Both the position numbers and the translations under genes were made by a program. A stretch of DNA of 20,298 nt from a virus. The notes under the pieces were generated by a model. It was not told the origin of the DNA, did no database searches, and saw nothing but the letters and a program-made list of their open reading frames with translations. Below are positions 6,496 through 17,624 of the stretch, in pieces. The first letter of the stretch is position 1. Every line of letters begins with the position of its first letter. The stretch covers positions 1-20,298 of the IMG/VR virus record IMGVR_UViG_3300050821_004783. The stretch is one strand, 5' to 3'.

Positions 6496-6899
6496 TAGGC
6501 ACCGCCCCGCAGTACATGCTCCCTGTGCTTCGCAGCTAGATGGTCTATGGAGAACTTCTTCTGCGGATGGCCGGTGATCTTGTTGTGGCAACGACGGCAT
6601 ACCGTGTACGCCCCGCCGACGATCGAGTGAAGCCCAATACGCCAGCAGTTCTCGGTATGGCAGTTGTGCTTGTGGTACCAGGCAGCCCCGAAAGTCACCA
6701 GCACAGACAGCAGCGTGGCCTCACCGAGATCGCTGCCGAACCCTGACCAGAAGTTGTAGTTATGCGCTACTCCGGATGTGTTGTAGCTGCCGGTGTACCA
6801 GGCGATCCAGTGTCCTTCGCCGAAAAACCATGCCACGGCGAAACCGACGACAAACGACAGGGCGAGTAGGGGCGCGTAACGCTTCAGGGCCGGGGTCAT
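6495..6899 (-). CDS. Membrane protein with cytoplasmic Cys/His cluster
   Basis: A 134-residue protein with two predicted membrane helices (about residues 8-26 and 58-75). A soluble C-terminal part follows, rich in Cys and His: C80, H81, C85, H91, C101, C104, H105, H111. The pattern HNCH...CWRIGLH...YTVCRRCH resembles small membrane/zinc proteins that occur in actinobacteriophage genomes. Their role is not established. It sits inside the head-tail module, overlapping the connector stop by four bases (ATGA), which is an odd place for a membrane protein. A holin-like or superinfection role is possible but not shown. Confidence 0.75.
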   Translation of the reverse strand: MTPALKRYAPLLALSFVVGFAVAWFFGEGHWIAWYTGSYNTSGVAHNYNFWSGFGSDLGEATLLSVLVTFGAAWYHKHNCHTENCWRIGLHSIVGGAYTVCRRCHNKITGHPQKKFSIDHLAAKHREHVLRGGA

Positions 6900-8014
6900 A
6901 TGACACGGCTTCGCGTCTTGCGGCCGTACTGGCTTAGGACACGGTCCCTCAGGTCCGGCAGGCCGACACCCGCCATCTGCTCCCGGACAGAAGTCCCAAA
7001 GTTGGTCGTACCGCTACGTAGTGTGTTCGCCGTGCCAGTCTGACCCCCGCTGATCGATCCGCTGTAGGCGCCCGGCTCCTGAGATAGGCCAACTATCGCC
7101 TCCGCCACGGCTAGCTGCTTGACCATGGCAGGCGCGTAGAAGACGTTAAGCGCGTCACCGTTGCTATGCGAGGCCGAGGCTGTCCCTAGCTGTCCGCGGA
7201 GGACGGTTAGGAGCCTGCGGGCCCATATCGTCCCCGACGTGTGGGCTGCGAGTATAGACCCGCCCCAGGCTCGCTTGACGATGAGCGTATTCCCCTGTAT
7301 CATCTGCACCAGGAGCCACTCTGCGTCTACCTGCAGAACCTCGTCCTTGAAGAACAGCGACCCGTTGGCCACGGTAACGATGTTGTCGGCAGCCGAGACG
7401 GTCGAAAGGCCAGAGTAACTGACCGTCGTATCGATGTAGTTCGAGTCGCTTACGATCATCCACTCGCTGTCGGCCGCGACAACGTCGCCTACCCCGGGCG
7501 TAAACCCGTCCGTCACCGTCATCGTGCTGTCGGTACTCAGCATGCTCGCTGCGAGAGTCCCGGCCGGATACTGGTTAGCCCAGTAGCCGTACGTGCCCTG
7601 GATAACGATTTCGCGCTGCGGAGTCGGCCCATTACCAAAGGCCGAGTCAGAATCCCGATTGAGCTCCAGGTATGTGAACGGGGCTACGGGATAGTTGGGG
7701 TCACCCCAGAATAGGGTCGACTCCGCAAGCACTACCCCGCCCGACGTGACAATCGGAGGGTTGATCGTGATATCAGCTAGCTCGTCAGCGTCCAGCCACA
7801 GCCGCCACGGGTAGGCGTACTGGTAGTTAGGCCAGTCGAAGGAGCGGGTGTCCTGCTCGGGATAGAAGACGCGCTGGCACAGGCCCTCAACGGAATCGGT
7901 GGCAGCCAGAATGTTGCGGTCAAGCTGGCTGTCGTTGTACGCAGCCTGCTTGATGTCAAGCGCACGCCTGACTTCCTCCCGTGTCGTGTAGCACGGGCGA
8001 TATATGGTTGCCAC
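6896..8014 (-). CDS. Head-tail connector (gp6-like) with inserted beta repeats
   Basis: A 372-residue protein. The N-terminal 150 residues look like a head-tail adaptor: helix-rich start (YTTREEVRRALDI, RNILAATDSVEGLCQRVFYP), then beta strands ending in IVIQGTYGYW. The last 80 residues return to helices (MVKQLAVAEAIVGL, DLRDRVLSQYGRK). Between them lie beta units with the pattern GD-V-E-M-V ... LTV-RG--GT---H--G. One unit appears nested in another: the first part at about residues 165-190 is completed only at 268-290, with a second full unit in between. GTG at 8014 is the only good start, with AAGGG upstream. The gene links portal to neck. Confidence 0.8.
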   Translation of the reverse strand: MATIYRPCYTTREEVRRALDIKQAAYNDSQLDRNILAATDSVEGLCQRVFYPEQDTRSFDWPNYQYAYPWRLWLDADELADITINPPIVTSGGVVLAESTLFWGDPNYPVAPFTYLELNRDSDSAFGNGPTPQREIVIQGTYGYWANQYPAGTLAASMLSTDSTMTVTDGFTPGVGDVVAADSEWMIVSDSNYIDTTVSYSGLSTVSAADNIVTVANGSLFFKDEVLQVDAEWLLVQMIQGNTLIVKRAWGGSILAAHTSGTIWARRLLTVLRGQLGTASASHSNGDALNVFYAPAMVKQLAVAEAIVGLSQEPGAYSGSISGGQTGTANTLRSGTTNFGTSVREQMAGVGLPDLRDRVLSQYGRKTRSRVI

Positions 8015-8075: not shown

Positions 8076-8333
8076 TTATGTGGGCCCGGTACTGCTGTAG
8101 TTCGGGCTTACTCCGCTCCCGCCGAACAAGCCTGCAGGCCTTGGAGGCTCAGTCCAGTCTCTCGGGTACTGCCACCCGTCAAAGAGGCAGAAGAGGACCG
8201 GGCTGCTTACGCTGCTGGGTCCTTCCCGGAGCGGCTCCCCGCACCTTGGGCAGGCGATTGGCGGCCGGAGGTTGTAGAATTCCCATTCCGCGCGGGCTTC
8301 TTTCCGGATGTCGAGGAGCTGGTACCAGCTGAT
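8076..8333 (-). CDS. Zinc-ribbon-type protein with apparent ATC start, hidden by overlap
   Basis: A frame of 85 codons lies between the disordered protein upstream and the connector, overlapping the former by 127 bases. It is closed upstream by a TGA just before GGAGGAGAC. It contains no ATG, GTG, TTG or CTG before its conserved-looking core, so the first possible initiator behind the strong Shine-Dalgarno is ATC at 8331-8333. Starting there, the product begins (M)SWYQLLDIRKEARAEWEFY, then NLRPPIACPRCGEPL with a CPRC pair (residues 28-31), then VLFCLFDGWQYPRDW with a further Cys (49). I recall actinophage proteins of this pattern (SWY..LL.I..EAR, CP.CGEPL, C.FDGW.YP.DW) next to capsid genes, which is why I call it real. 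An ATG-to-ATC change or a sequencing error would look the same. Confidence 0.72.
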   Translation of the reverse strand: MSWYQLLDIRKEARAEWEFYNLRPPIACPRCGEPLREGPSSVSSPVLFCLFDGWQYPRDWTEPPRPAGLFGGSGVSPNYSSTGPT

Positions 8334-8578
8334 GTCTCCTCCTCAGGCTTGGCGTCGAGTTCGGGCACGGGTAGGGCTGGCGCCTCTTCCCCGCCCTTCT
8401 GCTCGGCTATGGTGACGGTTTCGTCGGACGGTACTCCGGCTGCCTTCTGCTCGGCTACCGGGACGGGCTCACCTTCGAGAAGCTTCTGTTCATATTCCAG
8501 TTGCTCCGGCTCTGAGACGTCGAAGTATCCGGGCTCGAGATCGTTGTACGGCGGGCTGCTTACGTGAATGCTAGGCAT
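8207..8578 (-). CDS. Disordered acidic head-region protein
   Basis: A 123-residue protein starting MPSIHVSSPPYNDLEPGYFDVSEPE. The ATG at 8578 overlaps the upstream stop by eight bases and follows GGGAAG; an open frame extends further upstream to 8665 but would fully overlap the preceding gene. The composition is low complexity: Glu, Pro, Ala and Lys in the middle, with EQKAAG and EQKGGEE echoing each other, then Ser/Gly/Thr in the last 40 residues. No fold or domain is recognised. The last 127 bases also encode the start of the next protein in another frame, which may explain the Ser/Gly-rich tail. Confidence 0.65.
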   Translation of the reverse strand: MPSIHVSSPPYNDLEPGYFDVSEPEQLEYEQKLLEGEPVPVAEQKAAGVPSDETVTIAEQKGGEEAPALPVPELDAKPEEETSAGTSSSTSGKKPARNGNSTTSGRQSPAQGAGSRSGKDPAA

Positions 8579-8825
8579 TCTCGGACTTCCCTTTCTTGGT
8601 GGAAGCCGACCCCGCCCCAGCGGGTGGATCGCTAGGGGCGGGGTCGGCGGACGGCTGCGGGTCACTCAGAGCGAGGTCTTCCGCCGCGCTCCCAGAGGCA
8701 GAACCTGCGCCCTCGCTCTCCGCAACCGCGTTCCGGTCGGGACGCGGTGCATGGCATGTCACGACGGGGCAGAACTCGACCGAGTCTGCAATCGCCTGGC
8801 AGCCACAATTATCGCAATCCCACAT
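8571..8825 (-). CDS. Small Cys-rich protein with Pro/Ser/Ala tail
   Basis: An 84-residue protein. The ATG at 8825 follows AGGAGGAGAT, an excellent ribosome site. An in-frame extension upstream overlaps the preceding gene and has no support. The first 25 residues hold C4, C7, C9, C19 and C24 (WDCDNCGCQ ... FCPVVTCH), suggesting a small metal-binding knuckle. The remaining 55 residues are Ser/Ala/Pro/Glu-rich and probably disordered, ending in a short Lys-rich stretch. The DNA of the tail contains a perfect 14-base inverted repeat. Function is unknown. Confidence 0.68.
   Translation of the reverse strand: MWDCDNCGCQAIADSVEFCPVVTCHAPRPDRNAVAESEGAGSASGSAAEDLALSDPQPSADPAPSDPPAGAGSASTKKGKSENA
8605..8648. 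repeat. Perfect 14-bp inverted repeat, GC-rich hairpin
   Basis: GCCGACCCCGCCCC at 8605-8618 is the exact reverse complement of GGGGCGGGGTCGGC at 8635-8648, with a 16-base loop. It lies in the 3' part of the small Cys-rich gene, about 30 bases before its stop and before the start of the next gene. There is no T-run after it on the minus strand, so it is not a classical terminator. It may be an RNA structure that attenuates, blocks or stabilises the message, or a by-product of the GC-rich Pro/Ala coding. Confidence 0.6.
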
Positions 8826-8833
8826 ATCTCCTC

Positions 8834-9262
8834 CTAGCCGACAGTCGCACCGACGTCGAGCGGAATGAAGCTGAGGTACACCTGGCATGTCCCGGTCTGA
8901 GTGGCCGAAGCTATCCAGGTGATAGCCCCGGCTGTCGCAATGACAGAGCCAAGGCCACCCGATGTCAGGACAGGGATTCCCGACACACTCGCGCCAGCAG
9001 CCAGAGACGTTAGCGTTCCGGCGCTGAGAAGCGCCGTAGCACTGGGCGACCCTGTGATGTTGCAGCCGATGTTCAGAGTCGTGGCTGTAGCCGACATGGT
9101 CGCCGTGACCACAACCTGAACGGATGTGATCGATATCGAGCCGCCAGCCACGGTCCACAGCGTCGTCGAGCCCGTCGGTGGAATCTGAGACGGACTAACT
9201 AGCTGTGGGCCGAAACTGGCAGCACGGATCTGCTGAGCCTGCTTTGCCGGACTAACCGTCAC
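8834..9262 (-). CDS. Third tandem paralogue, probable capsid decoration/virion protein
   Basis: A 142-residue beta-rich protein. The GTG at 9262 overlaps the upstream stop (GTGA), so the longer open frame up to 9328 is not used. It is a diverged copy of its two upstream neighbours: FGPQLVSP near the start, TLWTVAGGSISITSVQVVVT, a central cluster of Ala/Thr/Ser, GAITWIASATQTGTCQVYLSFIPLD at the end. It lacks the inserted domain of the middle copy. A virion surface or decoration role is inferred from the location behind the capsid gene and the small beta fold. Confidence 0.7.
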   Translation of the reverse strand: MTVSPAKQAQQIRAASFGPQLVSPSQIPPTGSTTLWTVAGGSISITSVQVVVTATMSATATTLNIGCNITGSPSATALLSAGTLTSLAAGASVSGIPVLTSGGLGSVIATAGAITWIASATQTGTCQVYLSFIPLDVGATVG

Positions 9263-10989: not shown

Positions 10990-12414
10990 TTATCGGGTCG
11001 CAAGCTGGACGAACGGGGACAGCGTGTTCGCGCTGTTGTTGTGCGGAGTGATCGCACTCTGGATCCAGGGCCGACCGTCGAGACGCTCGATCACGCGGAA
11101 CGCCGTCTTGTCGTTCTGGAACCTGTACTGCTCGCTGGCCGCCGACTGCATCATCTGCCGGTCACCAACGAGGTAGTAGCTCAGGTCGACAAAGTTGATG
11201 TCGCCCTGGGTGGTCAGAGCCGGGGTCTTCTCAGTGAAGAACACTGGACGACCCAGGATCGTGATCGGAGGCGTTGCCGTCCCCGGGTTGGTGTAGTTGC
11301 CCATCCACACCGGCCCACCACCCGTGCCGACGGACAGCGCCATCGTCGCGAGTTCGGGGAAGGTGTCGATGGAGCAGATCCAGACCGCGTTGCCGAGCGC
11401 CGTGGGGAGCATGCGGGCATACATGCCCACGACGTTCTCCCAGACGATCGTGCCGGTGGCCTGGCCGGACTGCTTCGCGACCACGGCGGTGGCCGGGCAC
11501 CCGACAAAGCCGAGCGGCTCGCCGACGCCGGTGCCGGTCATGAACGCGATGTCTTCGTACCAGGCGATGGCCCGGGGGAAGATGGAGTCGAAGAAGGACG
11601 AGAAGGCCGGAGCATCCGCCAGAAGCTCGTTGGGCACTTCGGCGTATCCGGTGAGCTTCTTGGCGTCGAGCAGGACGCGCCCGAAGGTAGCCTGGCTCTC
11701 GACGAGTGCCGCACCTTCCTCTGTCCAGTAGCAGACCACCCCGCCGAACACGGACGAGACGTTGCTGGTGACGTCGATCATGGGGATCGGCACCCGCAGG
11801 CTGTCCATCGGGATGACCTGGGCGCGGGGCCGGACGACCGCCGACTCGAGCGCCACCTGGAGGATGTTCGAGCGCAGCACCTCGGGGATCAGGAATCCGC
11901 CGTCGGCCGGTACTTCCGACCCGAAGGAGTTCTGAATCTTGAGCATCTCCGAGCGCTTGCGCCCAAGCTCGGCTGCGTTCTTCAGCGTCTCGTACTTCGG
12001 CCAGCAGGCCTGGAAGAACTCGGCCGTGTCACGGAAGGCATTCTCCGGACCAAGCTGAGCCTCCAGTCGAGCACCGAAGCTTGACTTATTGTAGGCCGCT
12101 CCGCGACCGTGGCTCACGGCCCGGGCATCCCCAGGACCGGGCAGACCAGGCAGGCCCAGCTTGCTGTAGTCAGCGTTGCTGAGGTTCAGTCGCTTGCCAC
12201 CCATGCCGTTCTGCTGCATGAAGTCGGCCAGGCCAAGCTGGACCTGCTCCTTGATCTGCTTCTCCAGATCGCTGTCACGATTGACAACGAACTGGGCGTA
12301 AGCCTGGATGAACTCCTTGAACTTCCCGGGCTCCCCCATCATGGCCTTAACCTGAGCGGGGTCCCCGAGGAAGTCTTCAAGTTCCTCCGGCTTCGTTGGG
12401 ATCTTCACTGGCAC
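10990..12414 (-). CDS. Major capsid protein, HK97 fold
   Basis: A 474-residue protein. Residues 1-110 are helical and charged (PEELEDFLGDPAQVKAMM, SDLEKQIKEQVQLGLADFM), like the delta/scaffold domain that is removed by the prohead protease. From about residue 120 the HK97-type shell domain follows: N-arm (FFQACWPKYETL), GGFLIPEVLRSNILQVALES, then VRPRAQVIPM and IPMIDVTSN. The later parts include TGYAEVPNELLADAP and AWYEDIAFMTGTGVGEPLGFVG, the usual signature of this family. The last 60 residues hold FVDLSYYLVGDRQMMQ and AFRVIERLDGRPW. GTG at 12414 is used, three bases after the upstream stop, with GGGAG eight bases before. Protease and portal lie immediately upstream. Confidence 0.95.
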   Translation of the reverse strand: MPVKIPTKPEELEDFLGDPAQVKAMMGEPGKFKEFIQAYAQFVVNRDSDLEKQIKEQVQLGLADFMQQNGMGGKRLNLSNADYSKLGLPGLPGPGDARAVSHGRGAAYNKSSFGARLEAQLGPENAFRDTAEFFQACWPKYETLKNAAELGRKRSEMLKIQNSFGSEVPADGGFLIPEVLRSNILQVALESAVVRPRAQVIPMDSLRVPIPMIDVTSNVSSVFGGVVCYWTEEGAALVESQATFGRVLLDAKKLTGYAEVPNELLADAPAFSSFFDSIFPRAIAWYEDIAFMTGTGVGEPLGFVGCPATAVVAKQSGQATGTIVWENVVGMYARMLPTALGNAVWICSIDTFPELATMALSVGTGGGPVWMGNYTNPGTATPPITILGRPVFFTEKTPALTTQGDINFVDLSYYLVGDRQMMQSAASEQYRFQNDKTAFRVIERLDGRPWIQSAITPHNNSANTLSPFVQLATR

Positions 12415-12417
12415 TTG

Positions 12418-13716
12418 CTACACTCCCTTCAGAGCGTTGATCACTTGGGCAACATCGTCGTCGTTCCAGACGTCGACGTCGCCTAGGTTGTCACCGCTAG
12501 GCAGCCCGAGGGACCGAGCATGCGCCTTGAGGTGAGACAGCGCGGCCTCTTTGTTCTTGAGGCCCTCCGTCTGGTTCCAGCGTCCAAGGGCAGCGCTAAC
12601 GCCACCCTTGTCCGGACCGGCTCCAGGGGAGCTGTGGTGAGGGAGCGCCCAGTGTGCCTGGGTAGCGGGGTCGCCCGAAGAGCGTTCCCCGGCACAAATG
12701 GATCGGTAGTCGGATGCAGACGAGCACTTAGCGAAAGCAGCCGCCGCATCCCAGTCGAACAGTTCGGTGAAATCGTGATTCGAGAAGTGGTCCACTAGGG
12801 CCCACATCTCTTCCTCGCTCGCGCCACGGAGGTGTACGTGCTCGTGCGCCGACGGCCCAACGCCCACATGTCCTTCACCGGGACCGTGCGGCTCTTCGCT
12901 CGGCATGCCGGCACTGTGAACGTGGTGGTGATCGCCGTCGTTCTGGTGCGTGTGCGGGTGATAATGCATCCCGTCGTCGTGATCACCGGCTTCGTATGCC
13001 GCGTGGTCGTGGGTGTGGCGGCCGGTCATCGGCTCATGCCGCGCCTGCCGCTCCCCAACGTACGGAACCGAAGCCGCGTTGCGGTACACCGACAGGTCCC
13101 AGCTGTCCTCGGGGTTTGCCACGCGGCGCCCGGCGCCCGAAGGGACAAACCGGTCGCATAGACCTTCGGCGATGGCTTCCTCGCCGCTGTACCAGGTCTC
13201 CGCCTTCATCTTCTCGCGCCAGTACGCTTCCGGCTTCCCGGTGTGGTCGGCGTAGATGGAGGCGATGTTGTTGCTCGTCTTGTCGAGCAGCTCAGCCATG
13301 TCCCTGAAGTCCTGGGCACTCCCGATGCCCATAGCGTGGCCTTCGTGGATCATGACCTGGGCGTTCCTCGCAATGAGCAGCGGGTTGCAGGCCATCGCGA
13401 TCACCGAGGTGATAGAAGCCGCGACGCCGTCAATGATGCCGGTAACCTCCCCTCGTGCCAGCAGGGAGTTGTAGATGGCGATGCCATCGAACACCTCACC
13501 GCCCGGCGAGTTGAAGTGAACCTCGATTGGACCCTTGATGTCCGCGAGGTCGTGGATCAGGTCCTGGGCGGTCACGCCAAAGTACCCGATCTCATCGTAG
13601 ATGTGCAGCTGGGTTGGCCCATCTGCCTGGTTCTTGATCCTGTACCAGTCATTCACGCCCGGCTGGTGCAGGGCCATCATCCTCCTGGTCGTACGCCAGG
13701 GCGTGTTCCTGCTCAC
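12418..13716 (-). CDS. ClpP-type prohead protease with His-rich linker and C-terminal domain
   Basis: A 432-residue protein with three parts. Residues 1-215 are a ClpP/S14-like serine protease: FNSPGGEVFDG (oxyanion strand), VAASITSVIAMA with catalytic Ser101, MIHEGHAMG with His124, and AETWYSGEEAIAEGL, where Glu173 stands at the usual third catalytic position. Residues 234-295 are extraordinarily His-rich (17 His), e.g. HYHPHTH and HHHVH. Residues 325-402 form a small domain (FAKCSSASDYRSICAGERS, AHWALPHH, GVSAALGRWNQTEGLKNK) that I recall from other phage proteases and structural proteins. GTG at 13716 overlaps the portal stop (GTGA) behind GAGGAG; a later ATG at codon 13 is possible. Role: cleaves the capsid delta domain during maturation. 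Confidence 0.9.
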   Translation of the reverse strand: MSRNTPWRTTRRMMALHQPGVNDWYRIKNQADGPTQLHIYDEIGYFGVTAQDLIHDLADIKGPIEVHFNSPGGEVFDGIAIYNSLLARGEVTGIIDGVAASITSVIAMACNPLLIARNAQVMIHEGHAMGIGSAQDFRDMAELLDKTSNNIASIYADHTGKPEAYWREKMKAETWYSGEEAIAEGLCDRFVPSGAGRRVANPEDSWDLSVYRNAASVPYVGERQARHEPMTGRHTHDHAAYEAGDHDDGMHYHPHTHQNDGDHHHVHSAGMPSEEPHGPGEGHVGVGPSAHEHVHLRGASEEEMWALVDHFSNHDFTELFDWDAAAAFAKCSSASDYRSICAGERSSGDPATQAHWALPHHSSPGAGPDKGGVSAALGRWNQTEGLKNKEAALSHLKAHARSLGLPSGDNLGDVDVWNDDDVAQVINALKGV

Positions 13717-15152
13717 ACTAGCTCCTCGTGACCATTGCGGTGACCGTTAGCCTGCCCAAAGGCATCAACGATCGTCTTCCCTACATCCAGCCATTCCAGA
13801 CTTTCCTCGATAGCAAGCTGTCTTGCGGACGGCTCGCCGGTCTGGGTTGTCGGAATGCTAGGACGCGGTGCGGGACTGGGAGCATTGGGAGCGGGAGCGC
13901 CCGGGACCCCGGCCACAGCCGGGGCAGGAGGACCAGTAAAACTCATCTGCGGAAGCCCGACGACCTCACAGACTTGCTCAGGATCGTAGCCCGCCGCCAC
14001 CAGCTTCTGGGCAGCCGTTGACTTGGCGGTAAGCTCGTCATTGGCGTCATTGACGCTCGAGGGGTTCGGGTCCGCGAAGTCAAATTCAACGCCGACACCC
14101 GTACCCGCAAACATAGGCAGGAATAGCTCATTCAGGTAGGTGCGCTGCCTAATCAGCCGGGGTATCTCCTGCCAGCGGATGTGAACCTCTTCGGCCGTCT
14201 CGGCGTTGGCCCTGTTTACATCGGTAGAAATCCCGAGCATCGACTGGTGAATGCGATATGCCTCGCGGATGGTGTCTCTGTTGAAGACGCCGAGCTCTGT
14301 GAACTGCATATCACGAAGAGTGTAGGTATTGGGGATCCAGACGGCCCCCTGCTCCAGAACACCGACCCTGTGTCCACGAGCAACACCCTGATGCTGCTCA
14401 CGCCATCTTGCGACGAACTCATTGAACTCCTTATCCGTCAGCCGCTTGGCGAACTGAACAATGCCGCCCGGCGTCGCTGAATTGAGGAAGAAGTTCCTAG
14501 CCCACTCGGCCGTGTACTTGGCAGAGTCAATGTGGGCTAGCAGTGCCTGTACCGGCGAGAGTCCCCGGTAGAAGTCGGTCGGGTGCGGGTATCGCATCTG
14601 GATGACTTCGTCGACCGACAGTGGTACAGCCTCTCCATTCGGCCCCGTATACACCCAGCCAGCCAGGAAGTTGTCGCGGTCAGGTACAGGCTCCATACGG
14701 TCCGGACGGACCGGCCATATCTCGAGGGGGATGCCAGTACCGCTCGGCCCCCGGTTCAGCACCCAGTACCACTCACCGACGAGCTCCATGAACTGCCAGC
14801 CGATTTCCCGGAATAGCGATCCGACCATGAAGGGGTTAGGCCGGTTCCATAGCTTGAGTGCCTGGTGCTTAATTACCTCAACGCGCTGGTCGCTACCCTT
14901 GTCCGCCGTCGTGTAGCGCTGCCGCCCGTCCATCGTGGTGCGGTACATATGCCAGGGGGTAGCCGAAGCCCCACCCGCGCTGAGCAGCTGAACAATCGCG
15001 TAGAGTGTTCCCTGGCCCTGAGTTGTCTGCAGCAGCGTGAAACGGTCGGTCCCGCCCGAACCGTAAAGGTTGTCCCCGCGTACGTTCCACTTGCTGTTGA
15101 AGGGAATGGGTCGTCCCAGATCGAGCACCTTGCCGATCAGAGACTTTGACAC
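13713..15152 (-). CDS. Portal protein, HK97/SPP1-type
   Basis: A 479-residue protein that forms the dodecameric DNA entry ring. Visible family features: FTLLQTTQGQGTLYAIVQLL near the start, WYWVLNRG, VIQMRYPHPTDFYRGLSPVQALL with the clip/wing region, and FFLNSATPGGIVQFAKRL. Further on, the stem region reads HRVGVLEQGAVW, DMQFTEL, AYRIHQSMLGIS and ANAETAEEVHIRWQEIPRL. Residues around 405-440 are Pro/Ala-rich, and the C-terminus carries a helix (ARQLAIEESLEWLDVGKTIVDAF). GTG at 15152 shares a base with the upstream stop (TAGTG) and follows GAGGAGCC. The protease follows with a four-base overlap. Confidence 0.94.
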   Translation of the reverse strand: MSKSLIGKVLDLGRPIPFNSKWNVRGDNLYGSGGTDRFTLLQTTQGQGTLYAIVQLLSAGGASATPWHMYRTTMDGRQRYTTADKGSDQRVEVIKHQALKLWNRPNPFMVGSLFREIGWQFMELVGEWYWVLNRGPSGTGIPLEIWPVRPDRMEPVPDRDNFLAGWVYTGPNGEAVPLSVDEVIQMRYPHPTDFYRGLSPVQALLAHIDSAKYTAEWARNFFLNSATPGGIVQFAKRLTDKEFNEFVARWREQHQGVARGHRVGVLEQGAVWIPNTYTLRDMQFTELGVFNRDTIREAYRIHQSMLGISTDVNRANAETAEEVHIRWQEIPRLIRQRTYLNELFLPMFAGTGVGVEFDFADPNPSSVNDANDELTAKSTAAQKLVAAGYDPEQVCEVVGLPQMSFTGPPAPAVAGVPGAPAPNAPSPAPRPSIPTTQTGEPSARQLAIEESLEWLDVGKTIVDAFGQANGHRNGHEELV

Positions 15153-16025: not shown

Positions 16026-16269
16026 CGCGTTCAGCCGCCTTCCTGGCTAGCGCCTGGCGGATGAAACAGCTGCGTGCCTCGAGCAGAGTGACAAGTCCAG
16101 CCATCAGATCCGGCCCCGACCTAAGCCGCAGGATCATCTCCTGCGCCAGCCGGGCGCAGGCCATGCTCGCCTGCCTTGCTTCGGGCTCCTTCAGTGACGC
16201 CGTGTTAAAGTCCGCAGCAATCTCTTCGATCTCGGGTGCGGTACCGAGCGGGACAACGATGTCATTCAT
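16003..16269 (-). CDS. Helical-hairpin protein resembling Acb2/Tad1 sponge domain
   Basis: An 88-residue all-helical protein between terminase and portal. Two helices are separated by S-G-P (residues 51-53): residues 29-50 (EARQASMACARLAQEMILRL) and 54-86 (LMAGLVTLLEARSCFIRQAL). The order LA......SGP........L.EA..........AR fits, from memory, the hairpin domain of Acb2 and related phage proteins that trap cyclic-nucleotide signals of CBASS or Thoeris defence. Spacing between the conserved spots agrees well. This is similarity by eye, not a search result. The ATG at 16269 overlaps the terminase stop by four bases (ATGA). If not Acb2-like, it is simply a small helical protein. Confidence 0.7.
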   Translation of the reverse strand: MNDIVVPLGTAPEIEEIAADFNTASLKEPEARQASMACARLAQEMILRLRSGPDLMAGLVTLLEARSCFIRQALARKAAERDAQNVRT

Positions 16270-17624
16270 GCCTCGAAGCTCCTGTATATAACGCGGACAC
16301 CGAACTCCCGCTCCGCCACAATGTACCTCAGGGCGTCACATCCGTGGTCGTCCGCCTTAATGGGCTCTTCCTTGGTTTTCTTGTCTGCCCATACATACCC
16401 CGGAATCTCCTCGACGGTACAGGTAGGCCTGCCGCCATCAACGAGTTCCGGATCTATCTCCACCACTGCATTGCGCATGAAGAACACACGGGGATGCCCG
16501 TCCCCAGCATCCCTCATGCGCGCTTGTACGGCCTCGATACCCTCCAGCACCGACTTGTGGGCGGGACTGGTAGACATACCAAGGTGATTTTCGAGGGTGG
16601 CGCGGCCTTCCGCGTCGTGGTCACAGACGATCACGCTCGGCTGAGGTTCTAGCCACTTCCCCTCCGGAGCGACTATCTTCAGTATGTGCTTTGCGTGGTC
16701 CTCGACGAGGGTCTTCGTCTGGTAGATCTCGCGGTACATGATCAGGCGTCCGTCGGGATCCTCTGTCCAGCACTGCAGCACGAAAGGATTCACATACCCG
16801 AAGTCCACCGACCAGAACCGGTCCCAGCTGAGCGGTATGCCATTCGGGTCTGTCGGCTCCCCGGTGAACGGTGGTAGCTCGCTGAGGAAGTGCTGACTGC
16901 CAAACTCCTCGAAGATGACCCCCTCGGCGGCGACCCAGCGGCCAAGCCGTAGCCGCTGGTGTCGCACGCCGCTCAGGCGGTCAAGCTTGTTTATGTAGTC
17001 GGCACCGCGTTCCGTGATCGTCCCATCGGACCGGAACAGCATCGGGTTGTCCTCATGCCGCGAGTTGAGCAAGCGGCACTTACCCTGATCACACCGCTGC
17101 TTCAGCCAGTGTGTCGGGTAGCTCGGGTTACAGTCAGCCATCATCTGCTGGAAACTGATCACCCAGTTACGCAGTCGGCTCGTTAGGCTCTCCCAGTCAT
17201 TCTCGGTGAGCTCCGTAGCCTCCTGCACGTACACGATGTCGTACTCGGCGGACATGATCCGGGTGATCTTATCGAGACCGCCAATAACGATGATCGAGCC
17301 ATTCTTGTATCTGTATTGGGGTGGCTCTTGTGCGCTCCCGCCGTAGAATTCTACATCCCCAGCAAGGAGACTCTCGTGTACAACGAACCTTCGCCATGTT
17401 ACGAGCGCGGTGGAGCTCAGGGAAGTAGCAGTCTTGCGACAGATAAGGCCCCGCATCCCCGGATTCATCAGGGCTAGCAGGTGAAGCTTCTCTAGACATG
17501 CCCGGCTCTTTCCGGTTCCGGCTGGACCCGAGACCAGGACCTCACTATCGCGAGCACTCAGTACCGCCCGGCACGCTCCACGTGGACGGTACCGGTGCTC
17601 GCTCTGCAAGGTCGTCAGGGTCAT
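16266..17624 (-). CDS. Terminase large subunit
   Basis: A 452-residue ATPase-nuclease that drives DNA packaging through the portal. Walker A is GPAGTGKS at residues 33-40; Walker B is DIVYVQEA with Glu135. MMADCNPSYPTHWL is the usual motif III region of the PBSX/T4-like families. The nuclease half has WSVDFGYVNP (first Asp), VIVCDHDAEG (second Asp), and KADDHGCDALRY (third Asp), so all three acidic sites of the RNase H fold are present. Length is normal. The ATG at 17624 overlaps the upstream stop by four bases. The 88-residue hairpin protein and four other small genes follow before the portal. Confidence 0.95.
   Translation of the reverse strand: MTLTTLQSEHRYRPRGACRAVLSARDSEVLVSGPAGTGKSRACLEKLHLLALMNPGMRGLICRKTATSLSSTALVTWRRFVVHESLLAGDVEFYGGSAQEPPQYRYKNGSIIVIGGLDKITRIMSAEYDIVYVQEATELTENDWESLTSRLRNWVISFQQMMADCNPSYPTHWLKQRCDQGKCRLLNSRHEDNPMLFRSDGTITERGADYINKLDRLSGVRHQRLRLGRWVAAEGVIFEEFGSQHFLSELPPFTGEPTDPNGIPLSWDRFWSVDFGYVNPFVLQCWTEDPDGRLIMYREIYQTKTLVEDHAKHILKIVAPEGKWLEPQPSVIVCDHDAEGRATLENHLGMSTSPAHKSVLEGIEAVQARMRDAGDGHPRVFFMRNAVVEIDPELVDGGRPTCTVEEIPGYVWADKKTKEEPIKADDHGCDALRYIVAEREFGVRVIYRSFEA

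Follow-up and report, generated by a model that had tools for sequence, protein, structure and literature searches.

Two overlapping genes in a phage head module

The window, a virus record of 20,298 bases (IMGVR_UViG_3300050821_004783), carries on its minus strand the ordered head module of a tailed phage: terminase, portal, protease, capsid, several small genes, the overlapping pair considered here (f1 and f0), and an adaptor (Table 1). The position of f0, between the genes for the major capsid and the head-tail adaptor, suggests a role in head assembly. The gene before f1 (8571-9158, minus strand) holds MWDCDNCGCQAIADSVEFCPVVTC, a CxxC zinc-ribbon-like start followed by a long tail rich in Ser, Ala, and Pro. 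A tRNA scan of the window and of the corresponding region of phage Dagobah (considered at the end) called none.

Table 1. Coordinates of features in the window
Feature	Position	Strand	Remarks
Terminase large subunit	16266-17624	-	
Portal	13713-15152	-	
Protease	12418-13716	-	
Major capsid	10990-12414	-	
f1 gene	8207..8578	-	123 codons from ATG at 8578; MPSIHVSSPPYNDLEPG..., acidic linker, Ser/Thr-rich disordered tail
In-frame TGA closing the f0 frame upstream	8343..8345	-	three codons before ATC
Shine-Dalgarno site GGAGGAG for f0	8336..8342	-	same bases encode Glu in f1
ATC, inferred start codon of f0	8331..8333	-	aligned with codons of relatives
Dual-coded stretch, f1 and f0	8207..8333	-	zero NTG in the f0 frame
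f0 gene	8076..8333	-	85 codons, ATC to TAA; N-terminal helix and CPxC...C zinc-ribbon-like protein
Head-tail adaptor-like gene (phrog_442), next downstream of f0	6896..8014	-	

The f0 frame spans 88 codons from stop to stop, 85 when counted from ATC, and closes with TAA (8078-8076). Read along the minus strand, it runs TGA, GGA GGA GAC, ATC, AGC TGG TAC, and ahead of the core of the protein it offers no ATG, GTG, TTG, or CTG (together, NTG). An earlier note on this DNA had read from this arrangement that f0 starts on ATC behind a strong GGAGGAG and overprints the neighboring gene by 127 bases. The frame does lack the four codons, the Shine-Dalgarno (SD) site is there, the overlap has that length, and the start and the overprinting are both borne out by the relatives described below. 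The note was also right that a TGA closes the frame upstream, but the TGA lies three codons before ATC, not five. The stop of f1 falls inside f0 in the window; in most relatives it falls beyond. The sole interior NTG in the window's f0, TTG at 8129-8127, comes only after the f1 stop, as the model of overprinting set out below predicts.

The f0 protein is conserved in more than 100 loci, in which C28, G32, P34, L35, and C49 are invariant. The family shares S-W near the N-terminus, LL, C-P-x-x-G-x-P-L, and a second Cys. The window's protein has CPxC, many relatives have CPxD, and in most the second pair is C-x2-D. An AlphaFold model (mean pLDDT 81) gives a helix at residues 3-21, a small ribbon-like domain, and a disordered end. 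Fold searches of PDB and viral structures returned only weak matches of the zinc-ribbon type, sequence profiles gave L37Ae-like ribbons at E about 1e-3, and Pfam Zn_ribbon_3 fell far below its cut-off. No family in PHROGs, NCBIfam, or Pfam scored above cut-off.

The codon at the start position

What codon do relatives have where the window has ATC? A first search used patterns that included the Ile residue and was for that reason biased; nearly all of the 54 relatives it found had ATC. The search was repeated from residue 10 and then with an alignment beginning at Trp3, which leaves codons 1 and 2 unselected. The Trp3-based search yielded 80 loci from viruses, out of at least 552 candidates, and a further 26 from bacterial or MAG genomes, almost all of these actinobacterial; a DNA pattern from Trp3 onward added more. 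Relatives now number about 125, from IMG/VR contigs and from Streptomyces, Kitasatospora, and other actinobacterial genomes; a search of plasmids yielded none. Since all were found by sequence, very divergent homologues with other starts may be missing from the counts.

The 126 distinct loci have ATC at codon 1 in 82 cases, ACG in 9, GTG in 19, ATG in 8, TTG in 3, and something else in 5. The canonical codons (GTG, ATG, and TTG) thus account for 30. One ACG locus, L111, lacks f1, contains five NTG in the interior of f0, and offers a GTG in frame at -9; it was dropped from later counts, leaving 8. The exceptions are few, and they start in frame farther upstream, are fusions, or could not be placed: L177 has ATG slightly upstream, and L096, L100, and L245 carry f0 as a domain joined in frame to the ORF ahead of it. 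The junction in L096 and L100 comes after a TM-like segment (GASMAAGVAITASAQLG). Ten f0 matches turned up among 393 drawn genomes of Streptomyces (the genus of L147), all ten starting with ATC and all ten with f1 running through f0 or nearly so. Another carrier of a prophage of this kind is S. canus 299MFChir4.1.

ATC is also the most frequent codon for Ile, making up 91.5% of Ile codons in long ORFs, so its presence alone would not prove a start. But ATC is shared by many loci, and other homologues set their N-terminus at the same codon with canonical starts, some of them beginning MSWY with ATG or GTG. The codon is therefore a start position, one at which NTG is unavailable in the window, and not a sequence error. 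A misread or misassembled ATG might be suspected of a single metagenomic contig, which is what the window is, but it is refuted by ATC in 82 loci from many samples, among them isolate genomes of Streptomyces, Kitasatospora, Catellatospora, and others, and can be given practically no credence. ATC is thus a trait of the family, with ACG as the alternative, which goes beyond the earlier note.

The 90 near-cognate loci bear the marks of a start. Codon 1 is only ATC or ACG, codons -1 to -5 vary freely, and in 74 of the 90 the frame holds no ATG, GTG, or TTG from stop to stop. At codon 2 every one of them has Ser, Thr, Gly, Ala, or Pro, small residues that permit removal of the methionine. Threonines inside f0 are encoded by ACG in just 13 of 163 cases, but by ACG always when Thr stands at codon 1, as would be expected of a near-cognate start but not of an ordinary Thr codon. 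In ATC/ACG loci SD strength is greatest at the usual spacing from codon 1, as it is in canonical loci. In the former it averages -11.5 kcal/mol, as compared with -9.06 when f1 is recoded synonymously; the recoded sequences still give fairly strong sites, so f1 residues may account for part of the SD site.

Might f0 begin at some other codon, upstream or out of frame? There are candidates: a GTG at -12 in the ACG clade (L009, L012, L057-L059, L073) and, in some loci, a GTG or ATG at -10 or -7 in the third frame. These codons are not conserved, however, and are missing from the window. In L085 and L091, stops in the f0 frame separate any such codon from ACG, the GTG at -12 overlaps the SD site itself, and a start in the third frame would need a frameshift besides. 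A start elsewhere is accordingly quite improbable.

A little less improbable, though still hard to credit, is that f0 is reached from f1 by -1 ribosomal frameshifting near ATC, making an f1-f0 fusion in which ATC is an ordinary Ile codon. The direction from f1 to f0 is indeed -1, no ATC/ACG locus closes f1 at the site, and upstream there is an SD-like sequence of the kind found in some bacterial frameshift signals. The slip, however, would have to occur after the last f0 stop but ahead of the conserved part of f0, and this stretch contains no usable slippery heptamer or tetramer. In 56 of 90 loci the f0 stop is within 4 codons of ATC, and none of these has even a minimal Z_ZZN in the usable stretch; XXXYYYZ occurs in just 2 of 91 loci. 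ACG at codon 1 would be unexpected here for an internal Thr codon, and in homologues starting with ATG, GTG, or TTG, f1 mostly ends at the same codon and f0 stands alone. Finally, L142 (shown as GTC on the protein tree through an offset mislabel) holds the usual spacing from SD to ATC despite six codons inserted after ATC.

Overprinting and the absence of NTG

The reason for the odd start codon is the overlap. Counted from ATC, f1 codons begin at -2 mod 3, so that bases 2 and 3 of each f0 codon are bases 1 and 2 of an f1 codon, and each NTG in f0 puts TGN (Cys, Trp, or stop) into f1. In every ATC/ACG locus f1 is open across ATC, usually through the whole of f0, and it often ends no more than 30 bases past it. 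Its N-terminus is conserved (M[AP][KR][IV][TS]..GG.SN..) and leads into an acidic linker, whose coding sequence includes the SD site. In ATG/GTG/TTG loci, f1 mostly stops at or before the start of f0, often within NTGA or TGATG. None of the relatives had the overlap without the f0 frame, in searches that used that frame and could hardly have found such a case.

In ATC/ACG loci NTG has been purged from the interior of f0. With an expectation built on amino-acid content and codon use, and the start codon excluded, ATC/ACG loci contain 13 NTG against 332.7 expected, and canonical loci 128 against 132.2. In the part that is truly dual-coded, there are 6 NTG, from about two events, in 6650 codons, where about 5% is expected. 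The deficit persists in 26 representatives of no more than 70% identity (1 observed, 97 expected). CTG encodes 3 of the 552 Leu residues of ATC/ACG loci, as opposed to 73 of 182 in canonical loci. The f1 frame is open across f0 in 24 of the 26 representatives when 16.5 would be expected (P 2e-4), and in 3 canonical loci when 3.2 would be.

The residues of f1 in the overlap are likewise biased in ATC/ACG loci: Asp and Glu are enriched 4.3-fold, His and Gln 3-fold, and Asn and Lys 1.9-fold, and Arg and hydrophobic residues are depleted. Most of these ratios are near 1 in canonical loci. The purge of NTG and the bias of f1 residues argue that f1 is translated and selected through f0, and both frames are under selection in the stretch they share. 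This clear selection on f1 in the overlap might suggest that the f0 frame is a mere by-product, conserved only because f1 is. That idea is refuted by the canonical relatives, where f0 is kept, and annotated in a cultured phage, though f1 ends before it; nor are the W, C, G, and P motifs of f0 implied by a loose Ser/Thr-rich f1 tail. The chance that f0 is such a by-product is negligible.

The ban extends to NTG at the start codon, so f0 in these loci has a non-canonical start. Among triplets that differ from AUG by a single base, ATC puts Ser into f1 and ACG puts Arg. In loci with ATC TCN, an NTG start would put just Cys into f1 and no stop, so there the ban rests on the avoidance of Cys and Trp. 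It is not absolute: in one exception, L158:4995, a prophage of Streptomyces flaveolus, f0 starts with GTG, f1 is open across it, and f1 has Trp at that point.

Start type has changed repeatedly in the family. On the protein tree it switches at least 6 times on supported branches and 14 times on the best tree, and close neighbors may differ (L031 has ATC, L104 ATG). When independent pairs are compared, the purge of NTG switches with start type in 4 to 6 of 6 supported pairs in most pairings and in none goes against it; the sign test on these has six supported pairs only, with a median p of 0.06.

The end of f1 is variable. In L153, L024, and L063, as in the window, its stop lies inside f0, the tail being shortened or in the course of loss while ATC is kept. 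In L057, L058, L009, L073, L085, L002, and others, f1 has an extra C-terminal domain past the f0 stop (e.g., EAMKLAQEEYVKGNYDESERLLAVAENRG), TPR-like by eye and often ending GG[FT]LVP. It looks helical in some soil-phage loci, and a comparison with Pfam gave no match. In six loci with canonical starts (L108, L128, L133, L145, L146, and L262), the upstream protein ends in a SAP-like motif (LRAVAKSLGLPAGGTAAELQARIAEH) at the f0 start codon.

Proposed initiation at AUC

f0 is a real gene of the phage head module, and its translation very probably starts at AUC. The 30S subunit would bind the strong SD site that lies within f1, where AUC would then pair with fMet-tRNA at two of the three positions, giving Met-Ser-Trp-Tyr. 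The ancestral state was likely a short overlap, NTGA or TGATG, like that of present canonical relatives. A change such as ATGAGC to ATCAGC would in one step have removed the stop of f1 and left a near-cognate start. f1 could then have acquired its polar, Ser-rich tail, and selection to keep the tail would bar NTG all through f0, the start codon included. AUC is a weak start codon, and the yield of f0 is therefore probably low compared with that of f1.

Natural AUC starts are hardly known in bacteria and phages, conserved ones even less so, and a literature search found no bacterial or phage family that starts with AUC among the titles and abstracts listed. The f0 family offers a simple reason for such a start, NTG being forbidden by another gene in the same DNA, and contains its own natural controls, which lack the overlap and start with ATG or GTG. 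Since standard gene callers look mainly for NTG starts, they can be expected to overlook f0 in every locus with the overlap. A conserved frame with an SD site and no NTG is a logic that could be used to seek other hidden genes. A more speculative thought, one I would hold only tentatively, is that AUC and ACG initiation in actinobacterial hosts or in these phages is efficient enough to form a working, regulated class of starts, that other overprinted genes with non-NTG starts lie hidden from gene callers, and that weak initiation at AUC sets the ratio of f1 to f0 in head assembly.

Non-AUG starts within an overlapping frame occur elsewhere, such as the AUU start of IS911 orfB and the ACG starts of overlapping ORFs in eukaryotic viruses. 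The organisms and signals are different, however, and IS911 also uses programmed frameshifting. E. coli infC has a natural AUU start that is sensitive to IF3 (Sacerdot et al. 1996, cited in PMC2268962), and the work on IF3 presents AUC as a weak start (PMC2268962 and references there). This bacterial gene resembles f0 in its natural near-cognate AUH start, but infC serves autoregulation and is not overprinted, whereas the AUC of f0 follows from the overlapping gene. Short phase-2 overlaps, (A/G/T)TGA, are usual between prokaryotic genes (PMC3887535). In these the TG of the start codon occupies positions 1 and 2 of an upstream-gene codon, the same relation of frames as here, and the canonical relatives of f0 match it exactly. 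The overlap of f0 differs in that it is long and its start avoids NTG; the simulations in PMC3887535 considered only ATG, GTG, and TTG starts, with ATT noted as rare.

The closest known system is in Streptomyces phage Dagobah. tblastn of phages with a Streptomyces relative of f0 found it at E 4e-3; the window's protein and two relatives gave no match. HUN42_00015 (QMP84393.1, a hypothetical protein) is homologous along the f0 protein (MSWDQLLTI...VCP...LFCPF...YPRD), and its first residue aligns with the window's ATC. It lies in the same region of the head module, downstream of the major capsid gene, where an adaptor is not annotated. Unlike the window's f0, the gene in this cultured phage has an annotated ATG start in a four-base ATGA overlap with the upstream stop, and no long overlap. 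After it (L162, about 8250-8370) comes a stretch resembling a tRNA 3' end (GGTTCGATTCC), from which ARAGORN makes no call. The gene upstream of it (L162:7833-8066) has by its look a coiled coil and a membrane segment and is unlike f1.
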